DNA of 64,000 nucleotides. Source: Polytrichum commune. Its lineage: Eukaryota > Streptophyta > Polytrichopsida > Polytrichales > Polytrichaceae. Shown in pieces: positions 4,411-50,673 of the stretch. The stretch lies in contig OX485805.1 in assembly GCA_950295325.1 (NCBI GenBank), forward strand, positions 52,166,758-52,230,757, in the 5' to 3' direction. How positions within the stretch are numbered: position 1 is the first letter of the stretch; each line of letters starts with the position of its first letter. The position numbers were made by a program, and so were the translations under genes. The notes beneath the pieces are model-generated. The model worked only from the letters and a program-made list of their open reading frames with translations, made no database searches and was not told where the DNA came from.

Positions 4411-4489
4411 ATATACATCAAGTAGGTAGTAAAGAGAAATTAGTGGCCTTATTCTAGAAAGGTTTAAAACACTCCGTTTATATCATGTG

Positions 4490-18235: not shown

Positions 18236-18690
18236 GGAACGCGGGAGCGGACGGATGGGAACTCTAAAGCGGACGTAGGGGGCCATGGAGAGGACGAGAG
18301 GGAACGTTGGAGCGGACGTAAGGGAACATAGGGCGGACGGAGGGGAACATGGGAGCGTACGGAGGGGAGCGGACGGGAGGAACGCGGGAGCGGACTGAGG
18401 GGAACGGACGGAGGGGAACATGGGGCGGACGGAGGGGAACGAGGGGGCGGATGTAGGGAACGCGGGGCGGACGGAGGGAACGAGGGGGCGGACGTACGGG
18501 AACGGGTGCGGACGTAGGGAACGAGGGGGTGGACGTAACGGAACGGGTGCGGACGGGGGCGGGAACGGGTGCGGGTGCGGACTGGGGGGGGGGAACGGGT
18601 GCGGACTGGGAGGGGAACGGGCGTGGACGGTAGGGAACGTGTGCGGACTGGGTGGGGAACGAGTGCGAACAGGGTGGGAACGGGGAGCGG
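18236..18690. repeat. GC-rich minisatellite 3 (GGGCGGACG core)
   Basis: Imperfect ~20-30-bp units with GGGAACG and GGGCGGACG, ending just before a TATA box at 18700. Confidence 0.9.
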
Positions 18691-18699
18691 ATGGAAGGG

Positions 18700-18707
18700 T
18701 ATATAAG
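18700..18707 (+). promoter_or_regulatory. TATA box of the accessory gene
   Basis: TATATAAG lies about 10 bp past the end of minisatellite 3. The next gene on this strand starts near 19173. The stretch 18730-19170 would be leader or intron; I see no ORF of note in it. Confidence 0.55.
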
Positions 18708-22174: not shown

Positions 22175-23860
22175 TTACGTTCGAATCCGTACTGTGGGAT
22201 CATTTGCTTTGACATATCTTGGGTCCTCTTCAGACTCGTCTGTGCTGCAATCATCATCCATTTGGAGAGTCGCGCTCCGAAGATGTAACTCTCGGTTACG
22301 TTGTGAGAAAATTATCTTCTTGGTCGGCCGGGAGCCCTCTGCATTCTGTATGCCATTTTCATCTAGATGTGGTCTACCCTCATCTTCATTGTAGTCTTCA
22401 GCAGTAAACGGAAGCGATCTTCCCTGATACCTCTTCCTAGTACGTTTGACACCTCTCGTAGTTCTCTGACGCCCTCCACCCGTACCACGACTTGAGTGCA
22501 CTTCATCTCTACTTCCATCTATAAAAACATCCCCCGTTGTACTTCCGCCTCCAACTCCAAGGCCACCTGTTCCATTGGATTGACTGTGTGGAAGTGAAAC
22601 TTATGCGGACGGAATTGCAATTGGTATGTTCTCAACAACATGTCGACGAACAGATTGACGACGTGGCGCATCTGTAGTAACATTTCTTGAAACATTGTGT
22701 ATAGCAACCAAAGTAGCAACCAAAGTAGCACCCACCGTAGTTGCACATGAAACACCCAATCTAGAAGTATTGGCAATACTTCGAGTGAGAGGATGACATT
22801 GACCTTGTGCATGCACTTGCACCGTAGAGGTGGATGCAGTTCTTTGAAGAGTATGGAATCGAGTTGTAGGTATTTCAGGAACATTGGGCGTTTGATCTTC
22901 TACACAATGGTTGGATATGAGGGAGGCGTCTATGGATTCAGAATGTACTCGGGCTGGAAGTGGATCCTGTTGAACGTGCGTTGGCTCATTTGCGGGTAGT
23001 ACATTGTCACCTTCACCAAAAGAAAGAGAATCGCTCCGAGGTTGCAAGGAATCTACTTCAATTCCTACATTCTCACTTGCCCCCATAGCAACATTATGGT
23101 CAGGGCGAAACCCTTGTCCAGTGTGGAGAGTTTCAAAAGGCGGTCCTCCAATAGACCCCTCATGATCATCATGCATTCCATCGTTATGTTGGGGGACATC
23201 CGGTTCATCAAAATCAAACACCCCAAGGTTTCCATCACCACCATTGCCATCCTCATCTTCTGAATCATGATTCTCGGAATCGAGGTCATCCAAATCAAAG
23301 TCGATGTCATCAACATTGTTGTCATCATCATTTCCGGCCCTATCATTTGGATCCACGTCATCTTCGTTGTCATCTTCTTCGTCAAGGTCATCGTCAGAAT
23401 GGACCTCATTCACTTCGTACCATTGCGCAGGTCTTGGGCCCCTCCGATGTCGAATGAGCCTACTATTGGTATATATGTAGACGAGGTCCTCAGCACGACT
23501 ATGCTTCAAGCGATTGCGACTCTTGTTGTGAACATATGAGTACATGCTCCAATTGCGCTCACATGCGGATGCGGAACATACTTGTGCAAGGATACGTCTT
23601 GCTATTGTTTGGAGGGCTTTAGCTCCACCTCCCATTGCATCCCACCATTCATGGAGAGGTGCGGCATGCACGCTCGGGTCAGTAGAATCAGCAAAAGGCC
23701 CTCGATTTTCAAGGAAATCTTGGTACTGGTGGAGGATTTGGACATAAGTGTCCTCATCTTGAGCAAACCTGCGAAGAACTCGATTTAGGATTGTCCTCGA
23801 ATTGTCATCCTCATGGAGTGGGGCCCAACTACGTAGAAGCGGATTTAACATCACTCCAGC
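22175..23860 (-). pseudogene. hAT transposase, C-terminal part with dimerisation domain
   Basis: The frame resumes at AGVMLNPLLRSW right after the nested element. It contains the hAT C-terminal dimerisation region: EWWDAMGGGAKALQTIARRILAQVCSAS and CERNWSMYSYVHNKSRNRL, with the usual Trp residues. An extremely Asp/Glu-rich tract follows (about 23400-23210), then a Ser/Thr-rich tail. A TAA near 22601 interrupts the frame, which otherwise continues to 22175. The N-terminal half is at 41496-43015; both are minus strand. Together they give one transposase split by a 17.6-kb insertion. Confidence 0.88.
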
Positions 23861-23864
23861 CCAA
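23861..23864. repeat. Left target duplication of the nested element (CCAA)
   Basis: CCAA is repeated at 41492-41495. Removing the element and one copy rejoins the hAT coding frame (LHW then AGVML). Confidence 0.85.
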
Positions 23865-24253
23865 AACACTATATTCGGTATTTGGAGACTTTTGGTTGAT
23901 TATGAGACTATATAAGGATGCACATTTCAAAAATGGACCAGTAATGACGACTAAAAATCCCATATGTATAATGGTATGCTACTATTATTATACATAAAGG
24001 CATGGAAGTGAACAAAAATGTGAGTCATACATGAAAATAGTTGCGTATGAAATGACAACTCGTTATGAATGGAAGGGAAGATGCGAAGAATGAATGGAAG
24101 TTGAATGAATTAATTGGGATAGAAATACAATTATAATGGAAATACCATCAATGTCTTGAGTAACTTGGAATAGCATAGAAAGTAAGCACTTAAATATGTT
24201 CTACACCTAAGCCCATTTAGGGAGTCCGTCCCACTAGTACGCTTCTAGTCACA

Positions 24254-25156: not shown

Positions 25157-26112
25157 GCCGCGGGAAGGGGAGCCTGGGGACGAGGGGGGACGGGAAAGGC
25201 CGTCGAGGACGGGGGCGTCACATATGGGGGCAAACTATGGGGAACAACAACAATAACAACAACACAGACAACAAAGACATCCAAAAACGGATGAAGCGTT
25301 AGATATGTGAACCAAATGATAACACGCACATACATGAAGATATTTCAAATGAGTTTATTAAATTTTGCGAGCCTCATGATGCTCTTGTATACATTATCGC
25401 GGGGGCTTAGTCCCGCATTGCCGATGGGGTTGGACCTAACAAAAAAGGGGATGCTACCGGCGTGGAGCACAAGCCTTCTAAGGTACGGCGCTAGCGTATT
25501 GACCAAAAATGTGTCCTTCCTATCGCCGGTCCACGTGTCGGGAAAGATGACGTTGCCCGGGGGGTTCAAAACGCTCTTGGCGGGGCTGTCGTCGACCAGG
25601 AGAGTGTTCTCCGGAGTAGGCCACCACCCGTGGGGGGTCCCCTGAAGCCGGGGGACGCTGCGCCAAAGTCTGGACCTGAGGACCTTGAGGAACTGTTGTC
25701 CTCTGCCTCGGCCGCCGAACTTGGGAACCGGTAGACCCTTTTCGTCGAGTAGTTCATCGCAGTCCTCTTGCCCGAGGACAAGGCAAGGGCTCGGGAGATC
25801 ACGGAATAGGAAGTCGACGATGGGTTCCGTGTTCTCCATGAACATGGAGCTCCACACAATGACGTGGGCGAACTCGACCACCTCGTGAAGGAAGTCGCGC
25901 AAGCCGGGACGGGCGCGGACAACCTTGCGGTTTATTAGGGTGTCGAGCTCGCCGTCATAGTCCCTTTCGTCGGGGTGACGGAAGGGACGCGTGGGGACCC
26001 TCGGGATGTGTTCGGTGTGACACAACACCCCGTTGAGGTCAAACACGATGAACGGCTTGTTTCGGGTCTGAGGTCCACTGGTGGAGGGGTTGCGACCTAT
26101 CTCCGGGGGGTC

Positions 26113-26702
26113 CTGTGATTAACAATTCGACTAGTTTAATGCTATGATCCAATAAAGAATTTAGCAAACATGAAGATGCAGTATGGAAAAAGACGAAGGG
26201 CGAGAACAAGGGTACATTTGCGAACGATCGTTCGTGAAAGGCCAGCAGTGACCATGCACACCATTCACGAACGTTCATTTGTGAATGAACCGCATAGTGC
26301 ATTTACGAACGGGCGTTCGTGAAAGAGATGGTCGCGGGGTGGCATCCTTTTACGAGCGTCCGTTCGTGAACGAGGCAGAATTGCACAACAGATTTGAACC
26401 CGCATGAACATACACAAAACAACCAATGCGAGACGACGCGATTCGATGCAAAAAAATGTTTCATTTATATGAATTCCGTGAAAATTTACAGTTTGTCTCA
26501 GATGATAATCTATCGTACAGGTTCCTAGGCAACAGGATGCCGTGTCCTACAAAACTGGTCGACCTAAGGAAGCACGCAAAAATGGGCTATCGGAGGTCTC
26601 GGATGCCGATGTATATAATGCGCCAAAAATACAACGCATGTGGTTAGAGATGTTACGAACGCGCGTTCGTAAATGCATGCGGTAGTCTCAAAGATGAGTT
26701 AC
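26113..26702 (-). other. Intron 3 of the ParB/methyltransferase/HAD gene, with five palindromes
   Basis: Donor GAG|GTAACT at 26703/26702 and acceptor CACAG|GAC at 26113/26112 preserve phase 0. It contains five palindrome copies, with cores at 26221, 26269 (degenerate), 26306, 26353 and 26656. Confidence 0.65.
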
Positions 26703-28145
26703 CTCGTCATCGGAGGGAGGGGCAGCGGCGCTGGATTGAGCGGCAGCTCCCTCCTCAGCGATTAACGAACGCGCGTTCGTCACATCCGCCGCCGCAGGTG
26801 CCTCAGTCTCCATTAGGTCGTCAGCACGCGCCGCCTGAGACGCCTGGGTCTGCTGTATGTCGTCCTCCTCGCCACCCAGGTCGAGAGTCTCCATGTGCAC
26901 GTCCCCAATGTATGCGGAGGGATGCCGGTCTTCCGCGGGGCTGTCCTCGACGTCCATCCTCTGGACGCCTGCGGTGTCACTCGGGCTCCCCTGCGTGTCC
27001 TCCACAATGACCAAGTCAGTGTGTCGCGCAGTATCATCGCCCCTTGTCCTATCTAGTAAACTGGGGACGACGGTGAAAGGTGCCGTGTCCGTCTGTGAAG
27101 GCAGTCCTACCCTTGGTGGGGGTGGGGTGAGGACTGTTGGACCTGAAGATTCACGAACGTGCGTTCGTAAATCCTCGTCCTCACGGATAGCCGCCGAGAC
27201 TGCGTCGTGTATGTTGGCGGTGTCCGTGGGCATTGTAGGGGGTGGAGGAGTCCCCACCAACGTTGGGTGGGGCGCTGGCTGGTAGGAAGGTCCTCCCGGG
27301 AAAGGACCGTGCGTGGGGTATCCCGCAGGGAATGGGAATGCTGCCTGAGGGGCCACTGCAAAGTTTTGCAGTCTGGTCAGCATCGCCAGTATGGCGTCCG
27401 TCTTCTCGTTGGAGGACTTCAGCTCCTCCTCAATTTTCCTCATTTTCCGGGCATTCTCCTCTGCAGCCGCAGCCATGTCTTCCTTCATCTTCTGCTCGAG
27501 CTTTGCGTTAAGCTCGGCGACGGAAAGGGCCTCCTCCTTGACCCTTTTGTTCTTGTCGAACTCCACCCCAAGCTCGACCATAATGTCCATGTCCCCCTCG
27601 TCCTCGTCGGAGACCTCGATGATCGCCCCCTCGGGCAACTCCACGTACGGGGTCTTCTTCATCCTCCGTCGCGTGTTGCGGAACAGGTCCAACGTGGGAC
27701 GGGAGCGTTGGTCGAGGACATCGAGGGTCTCCATTTTCGGGACCGCCAGCCTTTGCTTGGGGGACACTGACGTCGAACAACCTCCTGGCGTGCCGAAGGG
27801 CTCCGCGCCTGAGGTAAGCGCGGGGAGGACATCCTGGGTGGCACCCGCCGAGGATCCAGTATATCTAGCCGGGGTCCCTTGGTATTCTGAAGGCTCCCCC
27901 GATGGGGCCAACAACCGGAGAGGAGTGACATCCAAAGCCTGGAGGATGGCATCGACGTTGACGGAGGGGCCAGGCTCGTCGTCGTCTGTTTCCATGGGCG
28001 GCATACCTTCGTCGGCCGGCATGTTGAAGTCCGTTCTGGGCACGGACATGTCAGCTAGGTCCATCGTCGACGCTTTTGTCCTGTGGAACTTGTAATCCTC
28101 CTCGTCGACGGCGTCAATATATGTGTTCACGCACAGGCCCAGCAT

Positions 28146-28333
28146 CTGAGATAAGAAGGCAAAGATTCAGTCATTTACGAACGCGCGTTCGTAAACATGA
28201 AGGCTTTGAGCGAGGAAATACTAACAAAATAATTCACAAAACAATCATAAGTATCGGCTGCCCATGATAAATTGTTTGGAGCATGCAGTGTTTACGAACG
28301 AGCATTCGTAAAAAGTGGTGTGAGATCGCTTAC
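28146..28333 (-). other. Intron 2 of the ParB/methyltransferase/HAD gene, with two palindromes
   Basis: Donor ATG|GTAAGC at 28334/28333 and acceptor ATCTCAG|ATG at 28146/28145, phase 0. Two palindromes lie inside (cores at 28178 and 28295). Confidence 0.72.
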
Positions 28334-29658
28334 CATGGCCGCGTACATAAATTTGCTGCCCCCAAATATGTTGTAGACAGTTTCGCCAGTCATTGCCAAA
28401 CCCTGCAATATGGAGACGTAGAACTCCATCCTCAGCTCCAGCGCCAGGAAGACAATGTACAAAGTCTCCTGGAAGAGATCCTTTGGAGGTGGGTGAGGGA
28501 TGCTGTATATCTTCTTGAATGTGTTGCTCGCCTTTATGGGTGTTCGCCCATTCCTAAGCGCATTGTACGTCAAGAAGATGAGGCTCACCGCTCCCACCTG
28601 CTTGTTGCCTCTGGCCTCGTTTACGGCAACAATCCCCTCCGTCTTCACTGGCACGTATGTGCTGTGGAAGATGTTGTACTCGAACTTGATCTTGTTCTCA
28701 TACAAATCGATGACGACGGATTGCTTCTCCTGCTCCACAATCCACAGCCATACGTGCGGCTCCCTCATGGTCGGAGATTTGTGCTCCATGAATTTCGCCA
28801 TGAAAGGGTTGTAAAAAGGCTCCCCCTTCGCGCCCTGCCGCGAGGCACTGGGGATCCCTCTGAAGTCGATGACCGCGAAGGGACAACCCCTTCGATCCTC
28901 CCTGACCTCGGACCTGCTGAAGGTGCCGTCCTACTTGGAAAACGTGGTCCTCTCCAGCCCCGTGGTCACCACACAAAATCTTGCCACGCCCTCGAAGGTG
29001 GCGTTCCTCTTCCTCTCCAAGAAGGAGATGTACCGTTGAAGCTCTTCAGGTTCCGTTTCTGTTTTTTTTGTTCTTTTGTTTCCCTTGAGCTTCAGGACGA
29101 CGACGTGCTCCTTCACCAGGCTGCGCATTGAGGCACCATTGATATTGTACAGCACCTTGAACTCCTTCCATTTCGCCCAGTTGATATCCTCGTCGGCCTG
29201 AAAAAGGTGCATCTCAGGCAATAGGCCGCTAATCTCCCGCATCGCAGCGGTCTTCAGCTTCCTGTGGTCGCACCACTCTTTGATCGAGTACGTGCCAGGT
29301 TTGTGCTTTGGTCTCTTCAAAAATATCTTGGGATAAGGGATGGTCCTTCCGACGGTGTTCCCAAGAACGTGAACCGCACAACGCTGCAACTCTGATTCAG
29401 TCAGTCCTTGCAGGGCCCTAAAAAATTCTCGCAGCAGAGGCGGGGCCTCTCCGCTCTTCTCTTGAGCGTACTTCTCTTCTGTGTCTGGGTTCACCAGATC
29501 CCCGAGCTGTGAGCGTCGAAGAACTGGGTCCACAACTCCCAGGTGTCTCTGTTGCAGCAAATCAGACGGAGCTCACCTTTGAGCTCCAAAACTGATTTGG
29601 TGCTCGTGGACTTCATGTCGATGGAGGAGAATTTGTCCACCATCGCATCACAGAACGC

Positions 29659-29781
29659 CTGCAACATACATACAAGGACGTCAGTGTTCAATACTAAATA
29701 CGAACGCACGTTCGTAAGTTGGAAAATTTAGAAATTGTTTAATGCAACATATGCTTTACGAACGCTCGTTCGTGAACTCAC
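29659..29781 (-). other. Intron 1 of the ParB/methyltransferase/HAD gene, with two palindromes
   Basis: Donor GGAAG|GTGAGT and acceptor TTGCAG|GCG, 123 bp, phase 0. Palindromes at 29701 and 29759 take up nearly a third of the intron, one placed just after the 5' splice site. Confidence 0.75.
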
Positions 29782-32091
29782 CTTCCACTGTGGAAATTGC
29801 GTCTTGGCGTTCTCCCTCTCTTTTGGCGGGCATCCGTGCGCGACCCACACATCTCTGGCCGCCACTATATTCGCCACCCAGGAGGCCTCGAATGCCTTGA
29901 TCTTGTTTCCGGAATTCAAAAATGTAGATATTTTGCGGAGCTTGTCCCAGTCGTCAGACCAAACCAAAAACGCCTTCCAGTAGCGCAGGTCCGCCTTGAG
30001 CTCGTGCTGGAAGTTATCATCCTTTAGGATGATCTGTGACGCCTCCAGACTGTGTTGTCCATCGATTATCCAGAACTCTCCATTCTGGATTCTTGGCCAA
30101 TCCTTCTCTGTGGGGCGTGACAAAAAACCCTTGGGCATCACGCAGACGGTCTGCCTATCCCACTTGACGTTGTTCATGAGGTTATTAATCTGCCACTTCA
30201 CCCCCCCGCTTTCACGAGACCTCACCACCCACTTGTTAGGGGATTTCTCGCACTTGAAACAATCCACGTTGAAAGTGAAGTGGCGTCCCATAGGCCAGCA
30301 ATCCTTGGAGTAGTTGTTGAAGTCTCGAAGGATTTTTGTCGCTTTGGCAGCGTCTGGGTTTTCTCCCTTCTTCAAAGGGGTTGGCATCACTGGCGGAGAG
30401 CTAACCTCAGCGCCTTCCGTCAATCCGGACTTCTCCATCTCGTCCCTCGACCTCTTGGATGGAGTGGATTGTCTGCTGGGCACTTCTGTCAACCTGCTCC
30501 CCGAATGCACAGGCCGCGGAGCACTTCTCGATCCTCCTGCCCCCGAAGCAGCTGGTTTTTTCGGACTTTTCTTTTTTTTATTTGCCTCCGCGGCAACACT
30601 GTTGTACTTCGAAACATTCAAGGTCAGGGCAGTCAACTTCCTCGCCGTCCAGTGTTGACTCAGGGCATATTTGGTAAAGAGAGCATCCAGGTTGAAATGT
30701 TTCGCATCGGATGCGACATTATTGCATGCATAAGCATAAGAGAATGGGTGCAATAGGTAGTTTAAGAGGAGGTTCACATGGTCTTTTTTATTTTTCATAT
30801 CCAGAATAACAAAGTCTCCTTGTGCCTCTACGGACTCTATCTCCCAATTCTTTGTCTGCACCCATTGGTCTGGTTGGTCAGCCTTTGTCTGCAGCTCATA
30901 AGTGAATCGCAATGCAAACAACCCTTCGTCGGTCTTCGTGGGGATGGCCGTCCACTCAGCCATGACTTCTTCTTTTGGGACATAGTTGTCGTTCCCATTG
31001 GTATCCGAGACTCCCTCTGGAAGGCGCTCCACTGGCACTGCGAACAAGTCGATGGCGTTTCTGCTAGCTTTAGCCATCTGCATCACACAAGAGCAAATCA
31101 GAATCGCTTTTACGAACGTTCGTTCGTAAACAACACCGTGCCATGCATACTATTTTCATAGTGTGGTTTTTGGAAATACGAAGTTTTGAATGCTTTATGC
31201 ATTTCAGGGTGGTTTCCAATGCATTCACATTGGTTCACATCTTTCACGAACGCGCGTTCATAATATGAGATACATGTTTATTAGTATTTTGTACATAACT
31301 ATACGAACGCGCGTTCGTAAAGTCATGCGATATTGTGTAACCTACTGAGTTAAATTTTAGTGTTGTGATTGGATTTAAGTACTTATATGAATTACAGCAT
31401 GGATATATCCCTCCATTTTGGATTTAGGGTTTCGAACGCACGTTCGTAAACGTAGTCCTTGGGTTCCAAAGAATCTTTACGAACGCGCGTTCGTAAAATG
31501 GTATATATTTTGCACGGCACATGCATTTACGAACGCGCGTTCGTAAATGGTTGTATATTGTGCGCGGTAGAGGTATTTACGAACGCTCGTTCGTAAATGA
31601 GCCTGTTGTTTGTTTATATATATATAATTAATAATAACAATATAGTGTCCGTACATATACGGATTTGTATACATACGAATTCGTATACATACGTATGGCA
31701 AGTCTTGCTTGTTGTGTCTCAGCAAAGCTTGCACTTGTGCCTGCAAGTGTTCATCAGAAAGGTGAGATTGAAGAAAAACAATACAATCAAAACATATAGA
31801 CTTGGAATGTGACAGAGAATTCAGAATGAGGATCCGAACTTGACTTCCAAAACACATGCCATTCAATAATGAACAAATATAGACTATGAAGGATTTGAGA
31901 ATGGAAGGAATATTGTGCTTACTCTGAAATTTTACACACCCAAAAGCTACTTGCTCCCTTGTTGAAAACCCCAGGAAACCCCACAAAAGCAAGGTGATTT
32001 GAAAGTCAAATGCACCTCTGCACCACTGAAATTGCCTTCACACTAGTTGTTGCATGCTATGTACAAACCCTAACTAAGACTCTGATGTATA

Positions 32092-32146
32092 TGTGTGGTA
32101 CTTTTGGGCCACCCCCTTTCGAGGGAGCCTAAAAGTATCACACAAG
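32092..32146. repeat. Hairpin
   Basis: TGTGTGGTACTTTT pairs with AAAAGTATCACACA around a loop containing CCCCTTTCGAGGG, which is itself a small stem. Further short hairpins follow (for example GCCTGCATTTGCAGGC near 32163 and ACACCCAACCGGGTGT near 32417). Confidence 0.6.
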
Positions 32147-35100
32147 CCCTTCGGTGAAGGTGGCCTGCATTTGCAGGCGCCCAAGCCGAACCCGGATGAT
32201 AGGTGTATAACGTGAGTAGTTAGATTTTTAAGGGAGATTAAATATGCGTCGTAATACCTCCGGAGGTTAGGCCTTAGTTTTTTACTAGTGTGGCTTTAAA
32301 CTCCACTAACCAATTTCATATCTAGTTCTAACCTTAACCTACAACCTATTCTACGCGCAGACGCACCAGCCTTGAAACCAAGGCAATCCTAATTTGTGAA
32401 TTGGGATGGTTCTGATACACCCAACCGGGTGTGACTCATACCACCCTAACTCAACGAACGGAATAACGACAATTTGATGGACCATTCAATTCTTCCTATT
32501 TCTTTATTTAGTTCTATTTAGTTTTCTAAGCGGGGGAACTTGGCCTAAGTCCCACCCTTCACACAAATTCCTTCTTAATTACTTACTTTTGTTTGCACGT
32601 CCTAACTTACTACATTAACATATTAGGCATCACCCCTTACCTCGGGTCTCTTGCCAACAAGGGTTTACGATTTATTTTGTATGTTTTGATTGTTAAATGT
32701 GTTTACACTGGATAGACCACGAAATGCAACTCAATGGGACCAGGGTGACGGGCGACCTGTAGGTTCAACCTGTTGCGCAATCTTCATAAATTGGGGCCAT
32801 TACTCCCAATCTATGGGGCCAACAACATAATAGTGGATTCGCGGGTCATTAACCCCACCTTTCCACCAACAACATTCAGAGTGGTCGTGTCGGTGATTAA
32901 TCCGACTTACCACACACGAAACTTGCTAATAAATGAAGCTACTACCACAAAACATACCAAGGGCCCCGAAAACAATGGAATTAGGTACTCCCTTGGCGGT
33001 CAAGTGGTCAAGCCACTTGACCTTACGAGATAGGTGAGTGGGTTTAGAGATGCGTACCTTAGCCGTGTTCCCTCCAATCCTAAATGGAAGGCTTAAGGTT
33101 AGTTAATTTACCTCAATTTTCCTCGGTTGATTTGGGCTTGATGTAGGCCGAGCCGCTACCTCCTTCCTTGCTCCACTTTCCGAGCGTCGACCTTGCCTCC
33201 TTCTTTGTAACTAGTTTGGTAGTAAGCGTACCTTAGTTAACAATTAAAATATAAAGTGTTATTCTGCCCTGTAATTTAATCCTAAGCATAATATTTATAC
33301 TTAGTGCACCAAATTATCTTTCCAATGATCTAAAAATCACTCTAATCGGATAAGAAATGCAAAAGTTATGAGGGTTGGAAGTGTGAGGTCGATTCAACCG
33401 ACCCTTCCAACCCACCTATCTACCTTCTAACTTCAAAAATTCATAGCACATTCCTTACTACTTGGATCTAGGCTTTTCTTATACCATTGGAAAGCTATGA
33501 ACAAGCTCTAACTAGAAAAATTATGACATCAGCAGGTTAAGCTAAAAACTATATAATTATAATGCCTCTATATAATTATATACTATATAATTATATAAAT
33601 TATAATGCCTCTACTCAAAACTCTACCATCCAACCTACCTCTACAAAAGAAGGAATAATTTTGTTGGTGTGTTAATAAACACACAACCTAACTAGGAGAG
33701 AGAGAGTAGAGGAGGTTCTCAAGCCTTTCTTTTAGACCATTGAGAATACATGCTAAAGGATTTTTTCCTAACTACATTGAAGCAGGGCTTCGCCCAAAAA
33801 CTAGAGAAAGAGAGAGAGCTACAAGGTGGAAGGAGGGGTTTTTAAACCCTCTCACAAAAGGGTTGGACCCCTCCTCCACCGGATCCATTTTTCAAACCCT
33901 TTCTCGAAATTTTGGCTCGGGGGTTTTCCTGGTTGAGGTTGCCACCCTCTCGCCGAGGTGGCTCCGACAAAAAACCTTTAGAAATCTTTCTAATTTTTCC
34001 GCCATCGAGTTGGCAAGGGGGCAAGTGGGCAAGTATCCCCCTTGCTCTCTTTCTTTTTTGTCTTCAAAAGTCTTCACGCCGATTTTATCTTCTTACGTAA
34101 AACACCTCCAATAGTCTTGTGTGCCTCACACTAACTAATAAACTAACACTTGCTTAGCTAGCATCTACTAACATTTGCTTAATAACTAGCATCTACTAAT
34201 ATTTGCTTAGCTAGTTGTTTTTACTAGCTAGCACATTTTTTCTACTTTGCTATCTTCTAGCACTACTTAGTTTCATTTTGACCTTCCTTCTTCTAGGCTA
34301 AATGCTAAATGAACTAATTTTTCCTAAATTCCCTATCAATTCTAACTTTTAATGCTAACATTCTAACTAAAAGTGATCCCGCAGAGTGGTGGACCACTCA
34401 AAGGGTTCACAATATGCAACTTCAAATGCAGTATCTCTCAAGCTGCTACTCTAAAACTTGCAATTATCAAGCTTATAGCTTGAGTATCCTAATCTTAAGC
34501 TTTCAACTCTACAAACTTTCAACTCTCCAACTTTCAACTCTTCTAGCTCGAGTTCTCTATTCTTAAGCTGCAACTCTCAAGGGACTGTCAATAACTCTCA
34601 ACACTTGCGCCTACAAAAGAAGTGCACCACACAAAACTAAAAATTGCAAGAGCTTCGCCTCTAAACTCTAAACCAACGCGGCGCTCCTCCTCTCTCTGCT
34701 CCAAATGCGAATGAGGAAGGAGAGGAGGGGGCGCGGGGAGGTAGCCCGCGCCTCTAGGGTTTTCCCTCGGGCTGCCACATGGCCGCTTCCCATTGGGGAG
34801 GGAAGGGATGGGTCGGGCTAGGAAGATGAGGGGATGGGATGGGGAGATAGCATGGGGTGTGGGATGGGTGGATGGGGGGGATGGGTTGGAATTCATTGGG
34901 GTTTAGTAATTCAATGTAATCAAAGCACATAAATATATTCAATGTGACTTAATAAAGTGATTTGCATGGGGGGCACTAACCGATTTGACATAAATATATG
35001 TCATCACAATAAGAAATGCAACTATATATTACACCATTTGCACTTAGTTTGAGACTTTCCCAACTCTCTAATTAACGAAAATAATCTAAGTTGGATGTAT

Positions 35101-35898
35101 AAGCAATAAAGGCACGTTAATTTCAAGCTTTTTAATATGTATATGCCTCCATCACATAAACATAAGGAGTCCAGTACAAAACATGCATTTTAAATGCTAC
35201 ATCCCCTTCATCTACTTTGGATACATTGTAAGCATCTTCTAGATAGGGAGTATGAATTCAATTTCCACATTGCACATCATGTACTAGGGATTCGATGAAA
35301 ACCCTACCCCCAACGATGTGTATTAATATGGTTGTTTAGAAATTCCCTGTTTTGGGACGGGTTGTTTTTTCTTTAACCTTTCCATGGACGGGTTGGTTTA
35401 GAAATAATTACCGGTTTTGGGACGGGTTGCAATTTTTTTGCCTTTCAATTCAAGGTTTTTGGACGTGGACGGGCAAAACCTTTGTGAAAAATCAGCCTTC
35501 GGTGGGGGGGTTTAAAAAAGAACAACTATACAAAATGTACAAGTAACACTTGTACAACTAAAACCCTAAACCATGAACATTTATAGAATTAACACTAATT
35601 GTTTTTAAAAAGAGGACCCTAAGGTTTAATAAAAAAAAAGCATAAACGATAGTATATATAATTCAACTAAACTATTAATTGAATGAAACATTCTACAATA
35701 TGTAACACTTATAACGACTTGAATGTATAAGTAATGAGTTCACATTAAATTCATGATTTGTAAACCCTATATGTAATGGATGCGTCTATCACATTAACTT
35801 CAATAACTTAGTAAACATGCTTGAATTTTGTTTATCGTCATTCATCTGAGGACATTTTAGATTGAACTTGTGCATTGCAGCCATGTGGTCGAATACAC

Positions 35899-35937
35899 TA
35901 AACCCTAAACCCTAAACCCTAAACCCTAAACCCTAAA
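35899..35937. repeat. Interstitial telomere-type repeat (CCCTAAA, about five units)
   Basis: Five uninterrupted CCCTAAA units with ACTAAA and ACCCTAAACTCT fragments nearby. This is the Arabidopsis-type telomere motif of most streptophytes. It is internal, so not a chromosome end here. Confidence 0.92.
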
Positions 35938-36552
35938 CACTATCACCAACCCTAAACTCTACATCCCTGCATCTTTGTATCTTACATGGTAGTCTTGTAT
36001 GTGGCCATGTTGTGATCTATGGGCATGTCAAAATGATCTACCGATGTTCGATGGATTGGAAATTGCTTTATTCGATTCATATCAATCGTAATAATTGAGA
36101 ATCATGCCAATTGTCATTTGGAGATTATAAATTAATTGAATTGAGACAAAAATTTGGTTTATGTGATTAATAAAACTTGAAACTTAAGAGTTTTGATGAA
36201 ATAATAACTTAATAGTTATTATACAATTTGATCACACAATCCATACTTAATATTATTATAACTTGCATGTCTTAGGCTCTTGATCTTAATTCACGCGTCA
36301 ATGATTTTCTGTTCATGGGTCCATGAGTCCCACTCCCACCTTATTGAGTGATATAAATTTAGTTTCTAAATTTAGTTTCTTTTATATATCAAGGTTAAGA
36401 AGAGTTATGGATGGTATTTCCATTGAATTGATTCAAGTTCCATTAATTCTCGGTATGTTCCCTTCCTTTGGGGTCTATTTCTCATTTCATGTGCAAATAT
36501 TTTCATGTAACTATGTTTCATAATTTCGTTCACTTCAATGCCTTTATGTCTA

Positions 36553-36670
36553 ATATAAGGTGTATCCGATTTGGAAACTATACGTATGGAAGTTTTAGTT
36601 TGTAATTACAAGTCCATATTTGAAATTTAAAATGCGTTCTTAAATAGTCTCCAATTACCAAATATACCAT
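36553..36670. repeat. Short fold-back element, possible MITE
   Basis: GGTGTATCCGATTTGGAAACTAT at the left is an imperfect inverted match to ATAGTCTCCAATTACCAAATATACC at the right. The right arm also resembles the terminus of the 17.6-kb nested element (AGTCTCC.A.TA.C.AATATA). No clear target duplication. Confidence 0.35.
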
Positions 36671-37182
36671 TATTGTATTAGATATGAATTGTTAATTAAC
36701 TTGGACTTCACACCTTGGTTGCAAATCATTTAATCTTCTATGTCAAAATTCATAATATTTAAATATCATGAAACATATATATGTATATATATATATAGAT
36801 TTGGTGGTTCAGACCTTGGTTACATCTAAGGTGTGCGACCAATTTACATTTTTTTCCAATATAATGTGCTTGCATGCAATACATGTTGCATACAAAATGC
36901 TATTTATATAATTGGTCATGGCGGGAATGGCATATTGGTAGGTCTAGGTAGGGGGCGGGAATCCGCTTTTTAAAGAGTATCCAAGAGATTTTGAACCACC
37001 GGGGGGAGGTACTTAAAGCTTTTCCCCCCACGGGAGAGCTCTTTTCTGCGGCTGACGGGAGGTGTGCGCTCTAGAGAGTTGTCGGAGCGCGCTCAAGCCA
37101 CCCTCCTGTTCGCCAACCGTACTCCTCACAGGTACACGACATAGCATATCCCGCATATACCGCCGCAAATACCGGATACTTA

Positions 37183-37855
37183 CGAACGCTCGTTCGTAAG
37201 TATGAGGTCCCATCACTAGCACAGTTGGATCGGACGGAATGTTGTGGGTTTACGAACGTGCGTTCGTAACTACCAAAGTATACCAGAGTCGACGTTGTGA
37301 CACATGTATATCAATCATTTGCAATGTGAATGGTGGTTCATTTACGAACGTGCGTTCGTAAATGTGGCATCTACGCTTTTATGTATGTGCAATTATAGAT
37401 ATAATGGTTGTTCATTTACGAACGTGCGTTCGTAAGTACGCCATCTATGATTTCTTGGTGTACACCTGCAGATAGTGATTGCTGTTGTTTTACGAACGTG
37501 CGTTCGTAAACACGATATCTATTTTGTCCCGATATACTCTTGGAAATTCGGGATAGTTGTGGTTTACAATTTTTTCTCGTTAATACAACATGCGAGTTCT
37601 GTACTGGTTTCCAGAAAAAACTCCTCGTTTATAAACCTTTATACCCAAACTCATTCATCCTATGCTATACGAACGTACGTTCGTGTAGAAAACTTGTACG
37701 TTCTGCTCATGCAGGTTGATGGTCTGTAATTAACGAACGCACTTTCGTAAATTCCATCAGCGATCAATATGATAGCACTTTGAAAGTCTTTCTAAGTTAT
37801 TGACTTCCACACATAGGCACATTCACTATTGCAGTCGTATACGAACGGACGTTGG
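37183..37855. repeat. Palindrome array, distal cluster upstream of the transposase gene
   Basis: Eight copies of the CGAACGNNCGTTCG palindrome, core starts 37183, 37253, 37345, 37419, 37493, 37670, 37734 (one mismatch) and 37842 (degenerate). Four consecutive copies are spaced 70-92 bp apart. They precede the transposase ORF, possibly within a 5' intron (donor-like CACAG|GTACAC near 37130; acceptor-like ATTGCAG near 37832). Confidence 0.92.
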
Positions 37856-37865
37856 TATTTAGAAC

Positions 37866-40800
37866 TTGACTGATTTGACATGCTGCGTTGAATGTCGTCC
37901 ATGTTGGCTATCATTCTTTCGTTTACGTTTGGGTCTCCTGGTGCCTCTGGTTTTTGTAGGTGGGATGGCGATGCATGTGGGTGGTAGTTCTCTGGAGTTG
38001 TCAACAGACATGTCGTCCTCCGTTCGTGAATGTGAAATTTCATCCTCATCCGCGTGTAGTTTTGACGACACAAACGTGGAGGGTGTGTCATTGCGTACAT
38101 CCTCTCATGATTCTTTTCAAGTGCACGACAGTTCTCTACATTCCGGTGTGGACGACGATGACATTCCTTTGTGTGCAGGATATGGTAGGGAGAAATGGGT
38201 GGGCCTTGATGTGGTTCTACTTAATGATCTAGGTGTCCCGGTGGCAAATGGCATATGTAGAAACTCCGATCCCCGTGAATGTGTTGATGCCAATCCACTT
38301 GGTCTCCATGATGTTGGGGTGTGCATCTTGAATTCTTTGCTTCCGCTTGAGGTCCCTGTGACTTGGAGGTTTTCATTGCGCCGATGGCCCCTTCGTCGGG
38401 TTCTCCATGAAGAAGTAAGCTTGTGGGATCATGGGCGACGGCATGAGCAAATTCAATCAACCTTGGTTTCCAACACTCGTCCTCGCAAAGGCCTCCGTAG
38501 ATATGATTCTAGCCGCGCGCCTCCTGATGATAAAGAGCGTCGACGGGATCGCATAATAGGAGACGATTCTATCCGTCTCGTGTCCGCCAAGGACTGTTGT
38601 GCAAAAAGATGTTGCCAATTTTTCCCCCGCGAAAAAATTAAGTCTTTGCATCAAGAGATGTGGCTCGCGGATTTTCGTATGAGGTCAGCAAAGAAACTCG
38701 AGGTCCATAGAAATTTGCACCTTGATGCCTATGGCCATAAGGTGGTGACCCTCGAGAATGTGGAAGTGTGTTGTACCGCATGGTATACCATTCATGCCGT
38801 CTCCAAGGCTGACTTTTATAGGTTTAGAAAGTATTCATCATTGGGTCGTCGCTCTCGATTTCATGGCAATGCGGGCACAAAGAAACCTAGGGAGGCTACA
38901 CTCCAAGCCTCCGCCACACTCTCCACGATCATAGTGCCATTGGCCGATGCAATGCCCCACAAGACGAGGACATTGTCGACAGGGGAGAAAGTTGTTCAAA
39001 TGGTGTTGCCCACGGGCACAAAATGGAAGAACATATTAACGGATATCAACGAAATGGGTCGCATAGTGAGTTGTGGGCCCATTTCTTTGTCCAAGTTGAG
39101 TGTCATTAAAAACCAACAATTTGCAGAATACATTTTGAAGAGACCTGGTGACAAGTTCGCGAGGTGCACGACGTGTGAAAAATACAAAGGTCTTCGAGAT
39201 GCCCACCCCATAGGTACTGAGTCTCATACCAGGCATCAAGCAAAATATATTGAACATGTCAACAACCAAGAGGCTCACCGTCAAGATTACTACAAGAACC
39301 GTGCTCTGTCCATAATGAGGCCTACAGAGGTTCTAACAATTATCCATGATAAAATGGACCACTCGAAGACCGCATGCCCTTGTTATGCTCGCAAAATAAA
39401 GGCCACGGATGGTCTTTTCAAGTTACCCGTATCTGTAACAGGTTTGTATGGCATCACAAACCTATTTTCACCCTAAATCCTATTTTATTGGGTGGTTTTT
39501 CCAAATATTCTACTTCAATGGTATCTTCATTTTTTTGGAGATTAACCCATCGTTTGTTTTTTATAGGTATGATTGCCCACGGCCATGGGGACGTAAAATA
39601 TGCCCATTATGGTTTGGATTTTTACCCTGGCGATGCTAACCACACGGTGGGTTCATTTGCAAAACTTTTGCGCGATCTAGAGAAACCGTCGATACAGTCT
39701 TCACGTGCATTGTTTGATGGGTGTGGAATGACACCCCTTTATGAGGTAGTGCTTGCGGGTAAGGAGGTTTGTATGTCGTCATTGCCGGAAGCATCCGGAG
39801 AGCTTATTTGTGCAAAACCTTTGCCTCCAACTCTCCACGTTCAACTTGATAATTGCGCAAAGAACAACAAATGTCGATACGTATTTTGTTTTTGGTCTTT
39901 GCTTGTGGCAAAAGGTATCTTCAAGGAGGTGTTTGTGTCTTTCTTGATGGTGGGACACACATATGACGACATTGATGCGTCCTTCGGACGGTGGAGCATG
40001 AAGTTGCATGAGGAAGATTTTCCAACCATACCACTTCTTATGAAATCGTATATGGATTTGGACCATATGCCGGTGATTCCGCACATGATCGAGGAAGTAC
40101 CAGATTTTAAGGCCTTCATCAAGCCATACATGTTGAAAGGAGGGGACCGTTTGGTGGGACACACCAAAGCACAACAATTCCGATTCTATATGAGGGATGA
40201 TGGTCTCCCGGCCATGCAATTCAAGCTTTTGTGCACATCTCCTAATTGGGGCCCGGATGATGGTATACTAGTATGGCGTCAAGACAATGATGGGAAATGT
40301 TTGCTCCCGGATGGGGATCCAAAGCCTTGTAAACCCAACCCCATGAGGAATGGACCGGAGATCATCAAAGGCATATCCGGATTCATTGAATATTGGAAGG
40401 AGTTGTGTGAGGAGGACATCACTAGACGTGTTAGAGATACTCATGAACCATTGATTTCATATTGGGATCGCATTCGCTCGGCACTAGTGACAATTGATGG
40501 CGACACCCGTACGACTTTGACACAAGGGTTTTGGCCACAAAGTTGTTTGACGGTTGTCGAGTCCGACACCATGTTTTTCAGCAATGGAGACGTTCGTGAA
40601 GAGTTCGCAATGGATGAACATTACGTTGGCCCTGCCCGCAATCGACCGGCACCGTCGTTTCGTGTTGGGGTTGATTGCCACGAAGGTTATATGGTGCTCG
40701 TACGAGCTGGGGATGAGGAGCATCCCAAACCAATTTGGTTGGTGAAAGCATTGTCTTCACCCAATTTTGTTCGAACTAGCCCCAACTTTCGTCAAATTGA

Positions 40801-41086
40801 GGTGGAATATTGCCATCCAAGCACTAAAGACCAGAACGTGCTTCGCACTTATTTAGGTTGGGACACCAAAAAGAATTCCAAGTGGACAGTGGACTCAGCG
40901 TACAAACCGGTTTGGATAAACACGGATACTATACTTTGTGCTTGGAAGCCGCGCAAAGGTTCCAAAACAGAATCAATGACCATCCCCCAAAAACATATAG
41001 ATTTTGCCAAGGACAATTTGGCACGTATTGCAGCTGCGGAAAATGACTCGGACAATGGATATGAAGCGGAAGATGGCGATGGATAA
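37866..41086 (+). CDS. DDE-like transposase of the nested element (DUF7869-type)
   Basis: Two exons, 37866-39441 and 39567-41086, joined through a 125-bp intron (ACAG|GTTTGT ... TTATAG|GTATGA) that restores one frame of about 1,030 codons. Near the middle are paired cysteines (CCAKRCC; FARCTTCEKY) and TIIHDKMDHSK. After the intron come HVQLDNCAKNNKCRYVF and FLMVGHTYDDIDASFGRWS, the pattern I associate with DUF7869-type proteins thought to have an RNase H-like transposase fold. The C-terminus contains VGVDCHEGYMVLVRAGD and an acidic tail. No in-frame stop is seen, so this may be the newest gene in the nest. The exact start is uncertain because the N-terminus is low in complexity and preceded by palindromes. 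Confidence 0.72.
39442..39566 (+). other. Intron of the DUF7869-type transposase gene
   Basis: Donor ACAG|GTTTGT and acceptor TTTTATAG|GTATGA; the protein reads PVSVTG then MIAHGHGDVKY across it. Unlike the other introns of this element it has no palindrome. Confidence 0.8.
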
Positions 41087-41491
41087 ACATAACATACTAG
41101 GTGGGAGTTAATGGCGAGAGGCATGTGAGCTTAGCAAGCTTGGTTTTTAATAGACTTAGTAGACTTGTCACATTCCATTGTGGCATATGTTTGGGATGTG
41201 TCATCCAATTTTATAAGACCCTTACTTTTGGGATGGGCACCCTAAACTCTAAAATGACAAAAACAATTTGTTTTTAAAAGTCCATTGTTATTTTTTACAT
41301 GGACTACACGTTTTCATTATAATTGAGACTTTCTATTTTTAGTAATGATAATATTCTGCGCATGCGAATTTATAAATCATCATGTTCTTGATGTTCCCAA
41401 TATTCTATATGCCCACAATATTGGCATCCCAAACTATGGGCATATTTAATTTTGAGACTTTCAAAAGTCTCCGATTAACGAATATAGTGTT
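41087..41491. other. 3' region and right end of the nested element
   Basis: AT-rich sequence with short inverted phrases (for example GCCCACAATATTGGCATCCC...GGGC near 41411-41441), ending in the inverted repeat at 41462-41491. No gene. Confidence 0.6.
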
Positions 41492-41495
41492 CCAA
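41492..41495. repeat. Right target duplication of the nested element (CCAA)
   Basis: Matches 23861-23864 exactly. Confidence 0.85.
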
Positions 41496-43015
41496 TGTAG
41501 ATCATTCAACATCAACCTCCATCTATTTTGAAACGTTAGCATAGCATTTGCAGCAAGCTCAGGGCTTAAGCGAAATGGAGGTTTACTGAATCCACGAATA
41601 TGGGTTTGTAAATCATGCATGATCCTCCAAGCCATTCCCATTGCAGGTGCCTTGCCATCAAATACACGAAGAGCTTTAACAACCGGGATCACCATATACA
41701 AAAAAATTTCACACGTGTTCCAGAATCCATCAGAACGTATAAAGCTTCGCACAGCAGAGCCCTTCATGTAAGAGGTGCGAGATCTCCTCCTCATATCACG
41801 CATTAGAGTAGGCCAATCCTCATCAACCACCATTCTTTCCAAAGCATTGCGTACTTGGAGAAGATGTTCTATCATGATGAAGTTCGTTGCAAAACGGGTC
41901 TCTACAGGTAGGCGGAGTGAGAGATTTGGTGACAACCTCCGGAATATAGCTTGAGAAGCATGATGGTTTTTAACAAATACACAAATATGGTGCGTTTTTT
42001 TTACCAATTTTTTCACCCATTTCTCCTTCCCCCAATCTTCTAAGAGGAGATCTAGGCAATGTGCAGCACATCCTTGAAAATATAGATCGGAATTTGCTCG
42101 AATCAAGTCGCGAGCAGCGGAGGCCATAACTGGGGCATTGTCGGTCCAAACTTGGACCACATTATGTCGACCAACCTTTTCCACAAATGGTTGAATTTGA
42201 GCAGCAACGTAGACATGATCTTTGTGATTTCTCGTGGTGTCAATGGTACCCAAGAAAACGTCTCCCTTTGTGCCGCATTGAAGAACGTTTAGGAGAGGTC
42301 GGTTTTGCACGTTGTCCCATCCATCGCAACATAGTGTAACGCCATATTTGTCAACGGAATTCCCCAGCTTCTCCTTCACTTGCCTATCTAGGTCAACCTT
42401 TTTATCAGTTAACAACTTCGTACGGATGGCATTGTACGATGGTGGTGTGTAGGCTGGCATTCGATGACGGGCAGTTTCACGCACAGCATTAACAAATGCA
42501 AGATGTCTCACAATGTTGAAAGGAATGTTAGCTTCATAAAAAGCCGTTGCCCATGCTTTATCAAGGAGTTGTTTTGTTGACACATTGAACCCCTCCGTTA
42601 TGTTGAGTTGACGTAGTTCACGAGGAGGTGTGCCATATATCACAACATCAGAATGTTGAGTGGATTGGGACATAAGCAAAGGCTCTGTTTCACTAATTAC
42701 GGAGTCCGCTATAATAGGCTCCAGAGGTACAATATCTGGCACCGGAGAGTCCTCATTTACAATGCCTACATGTAAGGGCACAATGCCTCCGCAATGTTCA
42801 AACAAGACCCTAATATGCGGGGGAACCATCCTACATGTGGAAACATCACAAGCACCCCCTACAGGAGGTCTATAACCAAGGTGGGCCAACATTCTATTTC
42901 CTCGGTAAGATATGACAAACGGGCAAAACATACATTTAACCTGCCTTTGTGATTTACCGGGAACCATCCCCTTATCCTCGTACCAATGATCCCATGCATC
43001 ATTTCGGCGTGGCAT
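41496..43015 (-). pseudogene. hAT transposase, N-terminal part (BED finger and catalytic core)
   Basis: It starts at MPRRNDAWDHWYED (43015), just downstream of an acceptor TTTGCAG at about 43029, so a 5' non-coding exon is likely. A BED-type zinc finger (CMFC ... HLGYRPPVGGAC) is followed by a DUF659-type hAT core: CDGWDN (catalytic Asp), WTDNAPVMASAARDLI (second Asp) and the hAT-typical GCAAHCLDLLLEDW. It ends at NDLHW where the nested element begins; the matching C-terminal half is at 23860-22175. hAT transposases excise and insert by DDE chemistry and give 8-bp duplications, as seen at this element's ends. Confidence 0.92.
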
Positions 43016-43245
43016 GACTTCAACAAAACCTGCAAATACAAACAAGTTAGAGCAAGTAACTTTGATCGCATACTAGGTCCTGTTCAAGAGTGCCACAAGG
43101 GCAACCCTAATTCACAGTCACTAGATTGGACAAAGTATCCTCTGCATTCGGGTCTCACGCATTCAATCCTCACTCCTCAAAGGAGAATCAAAAGACTTGA
43201 GACACACTATGTCAGTGGAGGCAAAAATGGCACCTTGAACCCTCA

Positions 43246-43263: not shown

Positions 43264-43682
43264 GGACGGGGGAGCGGACGGGGAGCGGACGGAGGGGGGG
43301 GGAGCGGACTGGGGGGCGGACGGAGGGGGGGGAGCGGACAAGGGAGCGGACGGACGGGGGGGGGGGGGGGGGGGGGGGGGAGCGGACGGAGGGGCGGACA
43401 GGAGAGTTGGGGGGGGAGTGGACGGGGGAGCGGACGGAAGGGGGGGGGGGGGAAGCGGACGGGGAGCGGACGGAAGGGGGGGGGGGAGCGGACGGAGGGG
43501 CGGACGGGAGAGGGTGGGGAGCGGACGGGAGAGGGGGGGAGCGGACGGGGGGGCAGACCGGGAAGCGGACGGAGGGGGGGGGGGAGCGGACGGGTTGGGG
43601 ACAGGGCGGGGAGCGGGAGCGGAGGGGGGGGAACGTGGGCAAACGGGGGTTGGGAACGGGGGCGGACGGGGGGACGGACGGG
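43264..43682. repeat. GC-rich minisatellite 4 (GAGCGGACGG core)
   Basis: Imperfect units of GAGCGGACGG separated by G-runs, including a 25-G run at 43356-43380. It lies between the transposase TATA box and the hAT right end. Reading frames here are repeat artefacts. G-run lengths may be assembly-sensitive. Confidence 0.92.
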
Positions 43683-43689
43683 CTCTAGT

Positions 43690-43915
43690 AAATTTTTCCC
43701 CACTTTACCTTTACTTTGCTGACATGTCATCACACGTGGACATTGTAAATCCTATGTGTCCGAATTGGGTTAATGTAATTACACAAAAAAATCGGTAAAA
43801 TTCAAGTCCGTCAGGATAAAGACAGCATCCGGCATAATGTCGTGACGGATACGTGTCGTGACGGCACGACATTATGCCGGGATTACCCTCCGTCACGACA
43901 CAATAGACAACCCTA
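43690..43915. repeat. hAT right terminus and subterminal region
   Basis: Contains GTCGTGACGG at 43839 and 43855 and its inverse at 43890. A perfect 16-bp inverted repeat, CCGGCATAATGTCGTG (43829-43844) with CACGACATTATGCCGG (43865-43880), precedes the terminal ACAATAGACAACCCTA. Confidence 0.8.
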
Positions 43916-43923: not shown

Positions 43924-44017
43924 AAGGGTAAGTCCTAACAGAAAGGATGTTGTGAGGAAACGAATCGACAGTGGAATGTGGGAGACTCATGCAACCCACC
44001 ACCTCATGGAATCTCAG
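43924..44017 (+). pseudogene. Outer transposase gene, continuation of the interrupted exon
   Basis: The frame broken at 10158 resumes (RVSPNRKDVVRKRIDSGMW, then HHLMESQ) and ends at a donor CTCAG|GTACAC. No stop lies between. Confidence 0.75.
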
Positions 44018-44711
44018 GTACACCTTACCCATCATGGGGCTTCTCTGCATTTTTTTCTACAATGGATTGTGGTTTAGGGTGTTGTGCAAGGGTAAGCATG
44101 TTTTTAGTGGTTCAGGGGGTTAGGCTTGTTTAGGAAATTAATCCTTAAGGCTTAAAGGAATTATCTGATTCCTATCATATTAGTATAGTTCCTGAGGGGC
44201 TCCCCTCATGCTTGGAACACTTCTATTTGGATCATTCCAGTGTGTTGGGTTCTAGGAATGTGCGCATAGTTTAGGTAAATTCCTTTAGATGCATAATTTT
44301 GGTTTCCAAGCGTTCAATCCATTCCTATGCTAGAGTTCCCATATCCCTCTTATGTGATATTGTTCATGGTGTAGTTGCAATGTTGTAAGGATTCTCTTAT
44401 GATTCCTATCCTTTATTCTTGTGATTCTTAGTGATTAACCTCAATCCTGATGATTCCTACTTCCTGCATATATCTTTCCTGATGATTCCTACCTCATGTA
44501 TATATGTTTCCTGATGATATTTATGTGTCCTGTCAATTCACGTCTTTCCTGCTCTGTCCAGTTCCTTAATGCAATATTTCCTGATGATACACCCTAGTCC
44601 TGATGATTCCTTCTCCTCAGTTCATGTTCCTTGATGTAGTTATTGAATTCATAAATGTTTTTTATACTGAGAATATGTATTAATATTTTGGAAACTGCCC
44701 ATGTTTTGCAG
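44018..44711 (+). other. Intron of the outer transposase gene with repeated TCCTGATGATTCC motifs
   Basis: Donor at 44018 (GTACAC) and acceptor TTTTGCAG at 44711, phase 0. It holds five copies or near-copies of TCCTGATGATTCCT (starts 44445, 44477, 44508, 44577, 44598) plus looser GATTCCTATC forms near 44165 and 44402. Confidence 0.7.
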
Positions 44712-48488: not shown

Positions 48489-48491
48489 TTA

Positions 48492-48887: not shown

Positions 48888-48890
48888 TTA

Positions 48891-50670: not shown

Positions 50671-50673
50671 CCT

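Follow-up and report, generated by a model that had tools for sequence, protein, structure and literature searches.

The 64,000-nucleotide stretch of Polytrichum commune analysed here (contig OX485805.1, positions 52,166,758 to 52,230,757; hereafter the window) contains a 17.6-kb DNA transposon with ends at 23865 and 41491, bounded by terminal inverted repeats (TIRs) that read AACACTATATTCG and by a 4-bp target site duplication (TSD). The element has two divergent genes on opposite strands (Table 1): gene A, on the minus strand, which reads as four exons with a product of about 1,600 aa (exon sum), and gene B, on the plus strand, the presumed transposase, for which DUF7869 is the sole Pfam match. 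Scattered through both halves of the element are copies of a palindrome, and it is their distribution, conservation and probable reader that are described below.

Palindromes within the element

Exact copies of the palindrome CGAACGNNCGTTCG occur 20 times in the window, all within 26221-37683, and not once in 100 dinucleotide shuffles. When up to 2 mismatches are allowed the number rises to 28 (shuffle mean 0.8), of which 26 fall in 26221-37855, the limits given in an earlier note on this DNA; one more (24978, 1 mismatch) lies inside the element beyond those limits and one (22971, 2 mismatches) outside the element. A base count over 134 exact sites, taken from the window and ten further genomic stretches, extends the motif to a 22-bp palindrome, TTTACGAACGNNCGTTCGTAAA, with a free 2-bp centre that is mostly CA, CG, TG, CT or GG. 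Matching this longer form with at most 5 mismatches over its 20 fixed positions finds 26 sites, of which 24 are non-coding and 2 coding; all lie in the element, and the rest of the 64 kb has none. The earlier description, of 26 palindromes confined to the element, with arms kept and a varying central dinucleotide, placed in three introns, in both 5' regions and twice inside coding sequence, is thus borne out. The sites nearest to the element ends lie about 2.4 and 3.6 kb from them, and the palindromes are therefore not subterminal.

Dispersed, near-identical palindromic sequences of this kind might have arisen from miniature insertions landing repeatedly in the element. The conserved unit is only about 22 bp, however, it occupies the same positions in diverged copies, none is found elsewhere in the window and the palindrome is matched to the gene A type (see below), leaving such an origin next to no probability. 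A unit of miniature inverted-repeat transposable element (MITE) type with its own target duplication was rejected, as 16 intron-1 sequences inspected by eye show no unit edges or empty sites, in agreement with the earlier view that the palindromes are not a known MITE.

Table 1 Features of the palindrome-bearing element (positions in the window)
Feature	Position	Strand	Basis or remark
TSD CCAA, left copy, in split hAT gene	23861..23864		read by eye
Left TIR (gene A side), AACACTATATTCGG...	23865..23894	+	inverted-repeat comparison
Gene A last exon, NIF / CTD-phosphatase-like domain (PF03031, E 1.8e-15), DxD reads DLN	25345..26112	-	Pfam profile
4 palindromes, gene A intron 3	26217..26370 (26217, 26264, 26302, 26349)		pattern match
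Palindrome, gene A intron 3, adjoining exon 3	26652..26673		pattern match
Gene A exon 3, low complexity / coiled coil by eye	26703..28145	-	
2 palindromes inside coding sequence, gene A exon 3	26762, 27150		pattern match
2 palindromes, gene A intron 2	28174..28312 (28174, 28291)		pattern match
Gene A exon 2; one frameshift and one in-frame stop in window copy	28334..29658	-	
2 palindromes, gene A intron 1	29697..29776 (29697, 29755)		pattern match
Gene A exon 1, 432 aa, DGQH (ParB-like?) region	29782..31077	-	
7 palindromes upstream of gene A exon 1	31109..31597 (31109, 31243, 31300, 31429, 31476, 31526, 31576)		pattern match
Spacer between divergent genes (limits approximate)	32000..36670		TIR-like remnants at 35086 and 36669
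8 palindromes upstream of gene B	37179..37859 (37179, 37249, 37341, 37415, 37489, 37666, 37730, 37838)		pattern match
Gene B exon 1 (limits approximate)	37965..39441	+	
Gene B exon 2, DUF7869 (PF25273, E 1.7e-39), presumed transposase	39566..41086	+	Pfam profile
Right TIR (gene B side), AACACTATATTCGT... on minus strand	41462..41491	-	inverted-repeat comparison
TSD CCAA, right copy	41492..41495		read by eye

Copies and conservation across the genome

The host genome (408 Mb in 64 contigs, seven of them 42-78 Mb) holds 6,137 exact palindromes against 26 for a reversed-pattern control. The first 100 places listed were examined in ten stretches containing all 100. Nine of these stretches hold sites. 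Among the matches listed, seven of the nine show similarity to gene A, to gene B or to the NIF exon, while stretch L001 lies inside a TIR-bounded gene-less element and L009 directly adjoins the gene copy in L010. Gene A exon 1 was scored at no fewer than 97 of 1,081 candidate places (at least 97 in the genome), 11 of which share the bit score 848.3, suggesting a recent spread of the element. Across 30 related copies (L011-L040, the window's own being L011) intron 1 and the region upstream of exon 1 carry palindromes at recurring places, whereas exon 1 is without one in 29, the exception (L029) being a partial match.

Within 16 distinct intron-1 sequences the palindrome arms are 94.4% identical, the centre 79.6% and the rest 69.1%; between groups only, in 8 chosen intron-1 sequences, the values are 94.4%, 73.0% and 59.7%, respectively. 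Changes were counted in 14 close copies and 7 of a second group, with exon 1 included in the sequence outside the palindromes. At A/T positions a single change was counted among 2,513 within the palindromes, against 395 in 43,443 outside (22.8 expected; Fisher p 1e-8), and CpG transversions number 1/1,726 at palindromes against 37/7,035 outside (p 0.004), which points clearly to constraint on the palindrome sequence.

The gene-less element (L001/L002) is 9,491 bp long and has both TIRs, the TSD CATA and 33 exact palindromes in two clusters, which by their order correspond one to the gene B side and one to the gene A side, and which include tandem units of 34, 110 and 160 bp among others. No match to gene A or B exons was found in it, the sole open frame that reaches 150 codons consists of palindrome repeats, and a NIF-like fragment remains (69% over 81 aa). 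Given these 33 tandemly multiplied sites, at least one non-autonomous copy has kept and multiplied the palindromes. The earlier remark that the palindromes are not tandem therefore holds for the window but fails for this sister element.

All three gene A introns in the window contain palindromes, and the intron 1 donor has one at a distance of no more than about 10 bp, a placement that would suit hairpins or motifs which guide or suppress splicing; splicing motifs had been suggested in the earlier note. Clusters upstream of both divergent genes, two sites in coding sequence and 33 in an element devoid of the genes all speak against such an RNA role, which would also not predict a separate word for each gene A subfamily; we consider it very improbable.

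Three palindromes and three gene A subfamilies

Gene A falls into three subfamilies in this host, each with its own palindrome in all copies read: ACGAACG (A-type, as in the window), ACGGACG (G-type) or TTTGGGTCGNNCGACCCAAA. Exon 1 of the second subfamily is 44% identical to that of the window, and the third about 32-36%, as judged on metagenome relatives. Metagenome relatives of exon 1 run on into the intron, so that their protein tails show the palindrome in translation. Among the matches listed, 12 of 13 proteins that are 68-84% identical to the window exon 1 end in TNxRS, RTxVR or ERxFV words (A-type), 5 of 8 with 42-46% identity end in FTDxRP, implying G in the arm, and 7 of 12 with 32-35% identity end in xVDRPK or SGDRPK words, implying a third palindrome. 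The second word and two candidates for the third were predicted from this read-through before such DNA was read, and one of the two candidates proved right.

In the genome, gene A of the second subfamily was scored at 97 places, and its copies carry ACGGACG-type palindromes. Of the exact sites in stretches L041-L044, 36 are G and 2 are A, and L001-L040 contain no exact G site. At the variable arm base the A-type loci L001-L040 read AA at 341 of 342 sites and GA at the remaining one, while the G-type stretches (L041-L046, L049 and L050, with L045 holding part of another element) read GG at 53 of 64 sites, with 6 mixed, 4 AA and 1 TA. The third subfamily was scored at 90 places, and all three intron-1 stretches read have GTTTGGGTCGNNCGACCCAAAC-like sites (2, 5 and 2, at 3 mismatches or fewer) and lack those of A- and G-type. 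A degenerate third-type pattern, TTTNGGNCGNNCGNCCNAAA, has 10,839 matches in the genome against 0 for the reversed pattern, and nearly all of the sites among the first 100 matches listed read TTTGGGTCG.... A regular 78-79-bp array of 17 third-type palindromes was also seen (C1:616089-617357 in genome G000), resembling tandem target-site amplification.

The genes themselves were compared between the window, two A-type sisters and two G-type elements, G1 (C5:17544722) and G2 (C2:10858293). Identity to the window in gene B is 90.7-92.5% for the A-type sisters and 84.4-85.5% for the G-type elements in exon 2, and 76-82% and 76-79%, respectively, in exon 1. Gene A exon 1, by comparison, is 82-83% identical in the A-type sisters and 44% in the G-type elements, and the NIF exon 89% (one A-type sister) versus 61-62%. 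G1 is one complete G-type element with the same TIRs as the window's and a 4-bp TSD. Between A- and G-types, transposase and ends thus hardly vary, and gene A and the palindrome switch jointly, which we would read as either cassette exchange or fast co-evolution. In the gene B intron, where the window has no palindrome, each of the two G-type elements has a near-palindrome with 2 mismatches.

This joint change bears on which protein reads the palindromes. If the gene B protein bound them, in the manner of the many subterminal TnpA sites of En/Spm, this would account for numerous palindromic copies in both element halves and in a gene-less element that needs mobilisation in trans. The palindrome type switches, however, while gene B (76-86%) and the TIRs, common to A- and G-type elements, stay; the distance of the sites from the ends also argues against transposase binding, as does the position of others mid-element, in introns and exon. 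Transposase sites, one of the possibilities raised in the earlier note, are accordingly disfavoured and in our view quite improbable. Clusters upstream of both genes would likewise be compatible with sites for a host promoter or enhancer protein, gathered by the element for its expression, but the presence of three words in one host, split by gene A subfamily in the copies read, makes this clearly improbable. Since it is with the gene A subfamily that the palindrome type changes, and not with the transposase or the TIRs, we favour the gene A product (protein A) as the reader, so that the ParB-like protein, among the binders named earlier, is the one that has gained support, in three subfamilies of one genome.

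The gene A protein

Exon 2 of gene A, interrupted in the window, is open in three other copies (L009/L010, G1 and G2). The DGQH stretch of exon 1 is nearly invariant among 23 exon-1-related sequences, 7 of which give a marginal match to the Pfam family DUF6551 (best E 0.027 for P0023, over the DGQH segment, below cut-off). With the DGQH signature seen by eye and a profile match that is marginal, the former assignment of a ParB/DGQH-like protein is a candidate one. Beyond the NIF exon, no firm match came from searches of gene A against Pfam, NCBIfam, PHROGs and solved structures. In that exon DLN stands at the DxD position in 9 of 9 copies covering the stretch (5 A-type, 4 G-type), and since DLN replaces what we take to be the DxD motif its enzymatic activity is doubtful. 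A comparison with plasmid DNA gave no match, and no relative of gene A exon 1 was found in viral contigs, where just 7 stretches have the palindrome, one each, which we read as chance.

The central part of protein A is where an alternative to simple binding has to be weighed, namely that it is an active DNA methyltransferase which, with protein A bound to the palindromes, modifies its own element. In the brown alga Ectocarpus, the Sola1-1_Ec32 transposon has an accessory gene opposite the transposase for a ParB-like and N4C/N6A methyltransferase protein which, in common with similar accessory proteins of algal transposons, is proposed in the cited part of that account to bind and mark its own element (PMC12477816), and a motif-I-like stretch is seen by eye at the gene A exon 2/3 junction (ETVYNVFGGTKFMYAAL followed by MLGLQVN in G1). 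The spliced exons 2 and 3 of two open gene A copies nevertheless have no Pfam methyltransferase match, and no DPPY motif was seen by eye in gene A. In comparison by eye with what we take to be the methyltransferase motifs, the D and G of motif I are replaced. The methyltransferase-like character proposed earlier is thus a putative one, seen by eye in the motif-I-like stretch, and self-marking by such an enzyme seems to us unlikely. The palindromes themselves are a possible methylation target.

Ends and surroundings of the element

The TSD is taken as 4 bp because CCAA (window), CATA (L001/L002) and AGTA (G1) flank identical ends in the three elements in which both ends were read. In the window the element interrupts a minus-strand gene for a hAT transposase, with DUF659 and hAT dimerisation domains, and splits it into halves at about 41492-43072 and 22601-23864, and by eye the hAT reading frame is continuous, as ...DLHWAGV..., once the insert and one CCAA are removed. 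The spacer between the divergent genes contains TIR-like remnants of related elements (35048-35086 and 36420-36669), of which 36420-36571 is related as an inverted repeat (77%) to the left end at 23970-24117, and a run of AAACCCT telomere-like repeats (35897-35937), which, with the moss homologues of gene B, suggests a host from the green lineage.

Beyond the element, a 686-codon open frame beside the hAT gene (44655-46715, plus strand) has no Pfam match and is transposase-like by eye. Two G-rich GGAGCGGACGG-like tandem arrays with strong GC skew (18236-18702 and 43264-43690) lie 25 kb apart, an AT-rich array of TACTGTAAATATATAC-like units at 4288-4431 forms inverted repeats (80-84% complementary), and an inverted repeat of 46 bp, with 87% complementarity and a loop of 2 bp, lies at 48673-48766.

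Discussion

With good confidence, we regard the palindromes as dispersed cis-acting sites predicted to be bound by the element's own accessory protein A. This is supported most strongly by the shared variation of gene A and palindrome, and further by the conservation of the arms, by the retention of the sites in a gene-less element and by their near-absence from exon 1 when they are present in the intron and upstream region on either side of it. We infer that protein A, with its DGQH/ParB-like region and NIF-like tail, binds the palindromes, most likely as a symmetric dimer in which each subunit would contact one 10-11 bp half-site across the free 2-bp centre. Many sites across the non-coding parts would allow the element and its gene-less relatives to be recognised as 'self'. 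A likely consequence would be that chromatin or DNA modification changes locally, so that the element stays expressible, much as with VANC and VANDAL, and to this anti-silencing outcome we would give about an even chance. The nearest alternative outcome would be the self-marking modification considered above; a third idea, speculative and drawn from the NIF exon, is that protein A might target the polymerase tail or else a phospho-chromatin factor.

Several observations sit less easily with binding and anti-silencing by protein A. Four of the 64 sites in G-type stretches are A-type, the third type is known from 350-400 bases at three places only, and the other candidate for the third word, TTTCGGGCG..., is not among the first 100 matches listed. 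Every part of gene A differs between the types, so that the binding part is not pinned down, the DGQH domain finds no firm match among the curated profiles of Pfam, NCBIfam or PHROGs, and no solved-structure relative of gene A was found by sequence search. In addition, CpG transitions (to TpG/CpA) are not reduced at palindromes (29/1,726 versus 115/7,035, p 0.92); CpG decay there being like that elsewhere, there is no visible protection from deamination, which fits badly with constant hypomethylation, and the palindrome CpGs may be methylated at least at times. Of the four 4-kb blocks between 24 and 40 kb, three have an observed/expected CpG ratio of 0.93-1.04 and the fourth, the spacer block, one of 0.56, compared with 0.69-0.90 at 1-24 kb and 0.28-0.37 at 44001-56000, which gives no clean separation of the element from its surroundings and may reflect age.

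The closest functional parallel to the proposed role of protein A is VANC/VANDAL in Arabidopsis. There VANC21 recognises the motif YAGTATTAY in the non-coding parts of VANDAL21 (introns, intergenic and terminal regions) and binding leads to methylation loss, related VANCs act on different elements, and the targets grow by tandem repeats, as described in the cited part of PMC5735166; the contest of VANC with RNA-directed methylation is located in those same non-coding regions (PMC10398659, cited part). As far as these accounts go, the two systems share an element-encoded non-transposase protein and a short motif repeated in non-coding regions (here 24 of 26 sites), related families with different motifs (here three words for three gene A subfamilies), site multiplication by tandem repeats, and an accessory protein less conserved than the transposase. 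They differ in that the pieces of gene A have no Pfam match to the VANC domains DUF1985 and DUF287 named in the part of PMC5735166 cited, and in that the motif here is a long two-fold palindrome and any hypomethylation is putative.

The elements themselves also differ. Gene B matches DUF7869 in Pfam and not a transposase of Mutator-like element (MULE) type, and the TSD here is 4 bp; VANDAL is a MULE, and its transposase, VANA, is of MULE type. En/Spm (CACTA) elements have a 3-bp TSD next to CACTA and subterminal TnpA sites. Our element resembles them in a TIR that holds CACTA and in many short sites for a, here predicted, element-encoded protein, but its flanks agree as 4 bp with an AACACTA end instead of a 3-bp TSD, its sites are not subterminal, and no En/Spm transposase domain was found. 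The 4-bp TSD of three elements instead recalls the Sola superfamily, as do moss DUF7869 proteins 39-48% identical to gene B: a 4-bp TSD is given for Sola2 in the cited part of PMC3627910, and Sola1 is recorded for Physcomitrella in that of PMC9033089. Sola membership is a candidate assignment. The Ectocarpus Sola1-1_Ec32 is, in the account cited above, likewise a giant DNA transposon with an accessory gene on the strand opposite the transposase, but the methyltransferase part is here putative and a NIF domain ends protein A. No target site is named in the cited part of that account (PMC12477816), whose main text nowhere uses the word palindrom. A literature search found no paper on DUF7869 and no title or abstract opening describing this palindrome, which is not proof of its absence in print.

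Sequence-specific self-recognition by a transposon is documented for one system, VANC/VANDAL, in the cited parts of PMC5735166 and PMC10398659. Here the putative targets are visible, in thousands of copies, with three protein-palindrome pairs in one genome, making the predicted binding, and anti-silencing through it, directly testable. Tentatively, and as a proposal that falls a little short of an even bet, there would be at least three self-recognition codes in this one genome, with DUF7869 (Sola-like) transposons carrying exchangeable cassettes of a ParB-like, NIF-tailed protein and its own 20-22-bp palindromic address, repeated thousands of times, by which an element is exempted from silencing or marked as self without others being touched; such a VANC-like system would have arisen independently outside MULEs, with a bacterial-type DNA-binding domain. 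The family may offer a set of orthogonal long-palindrome DNA binders, and the gene-less element shows how non-autonomous elements may exploit the system.

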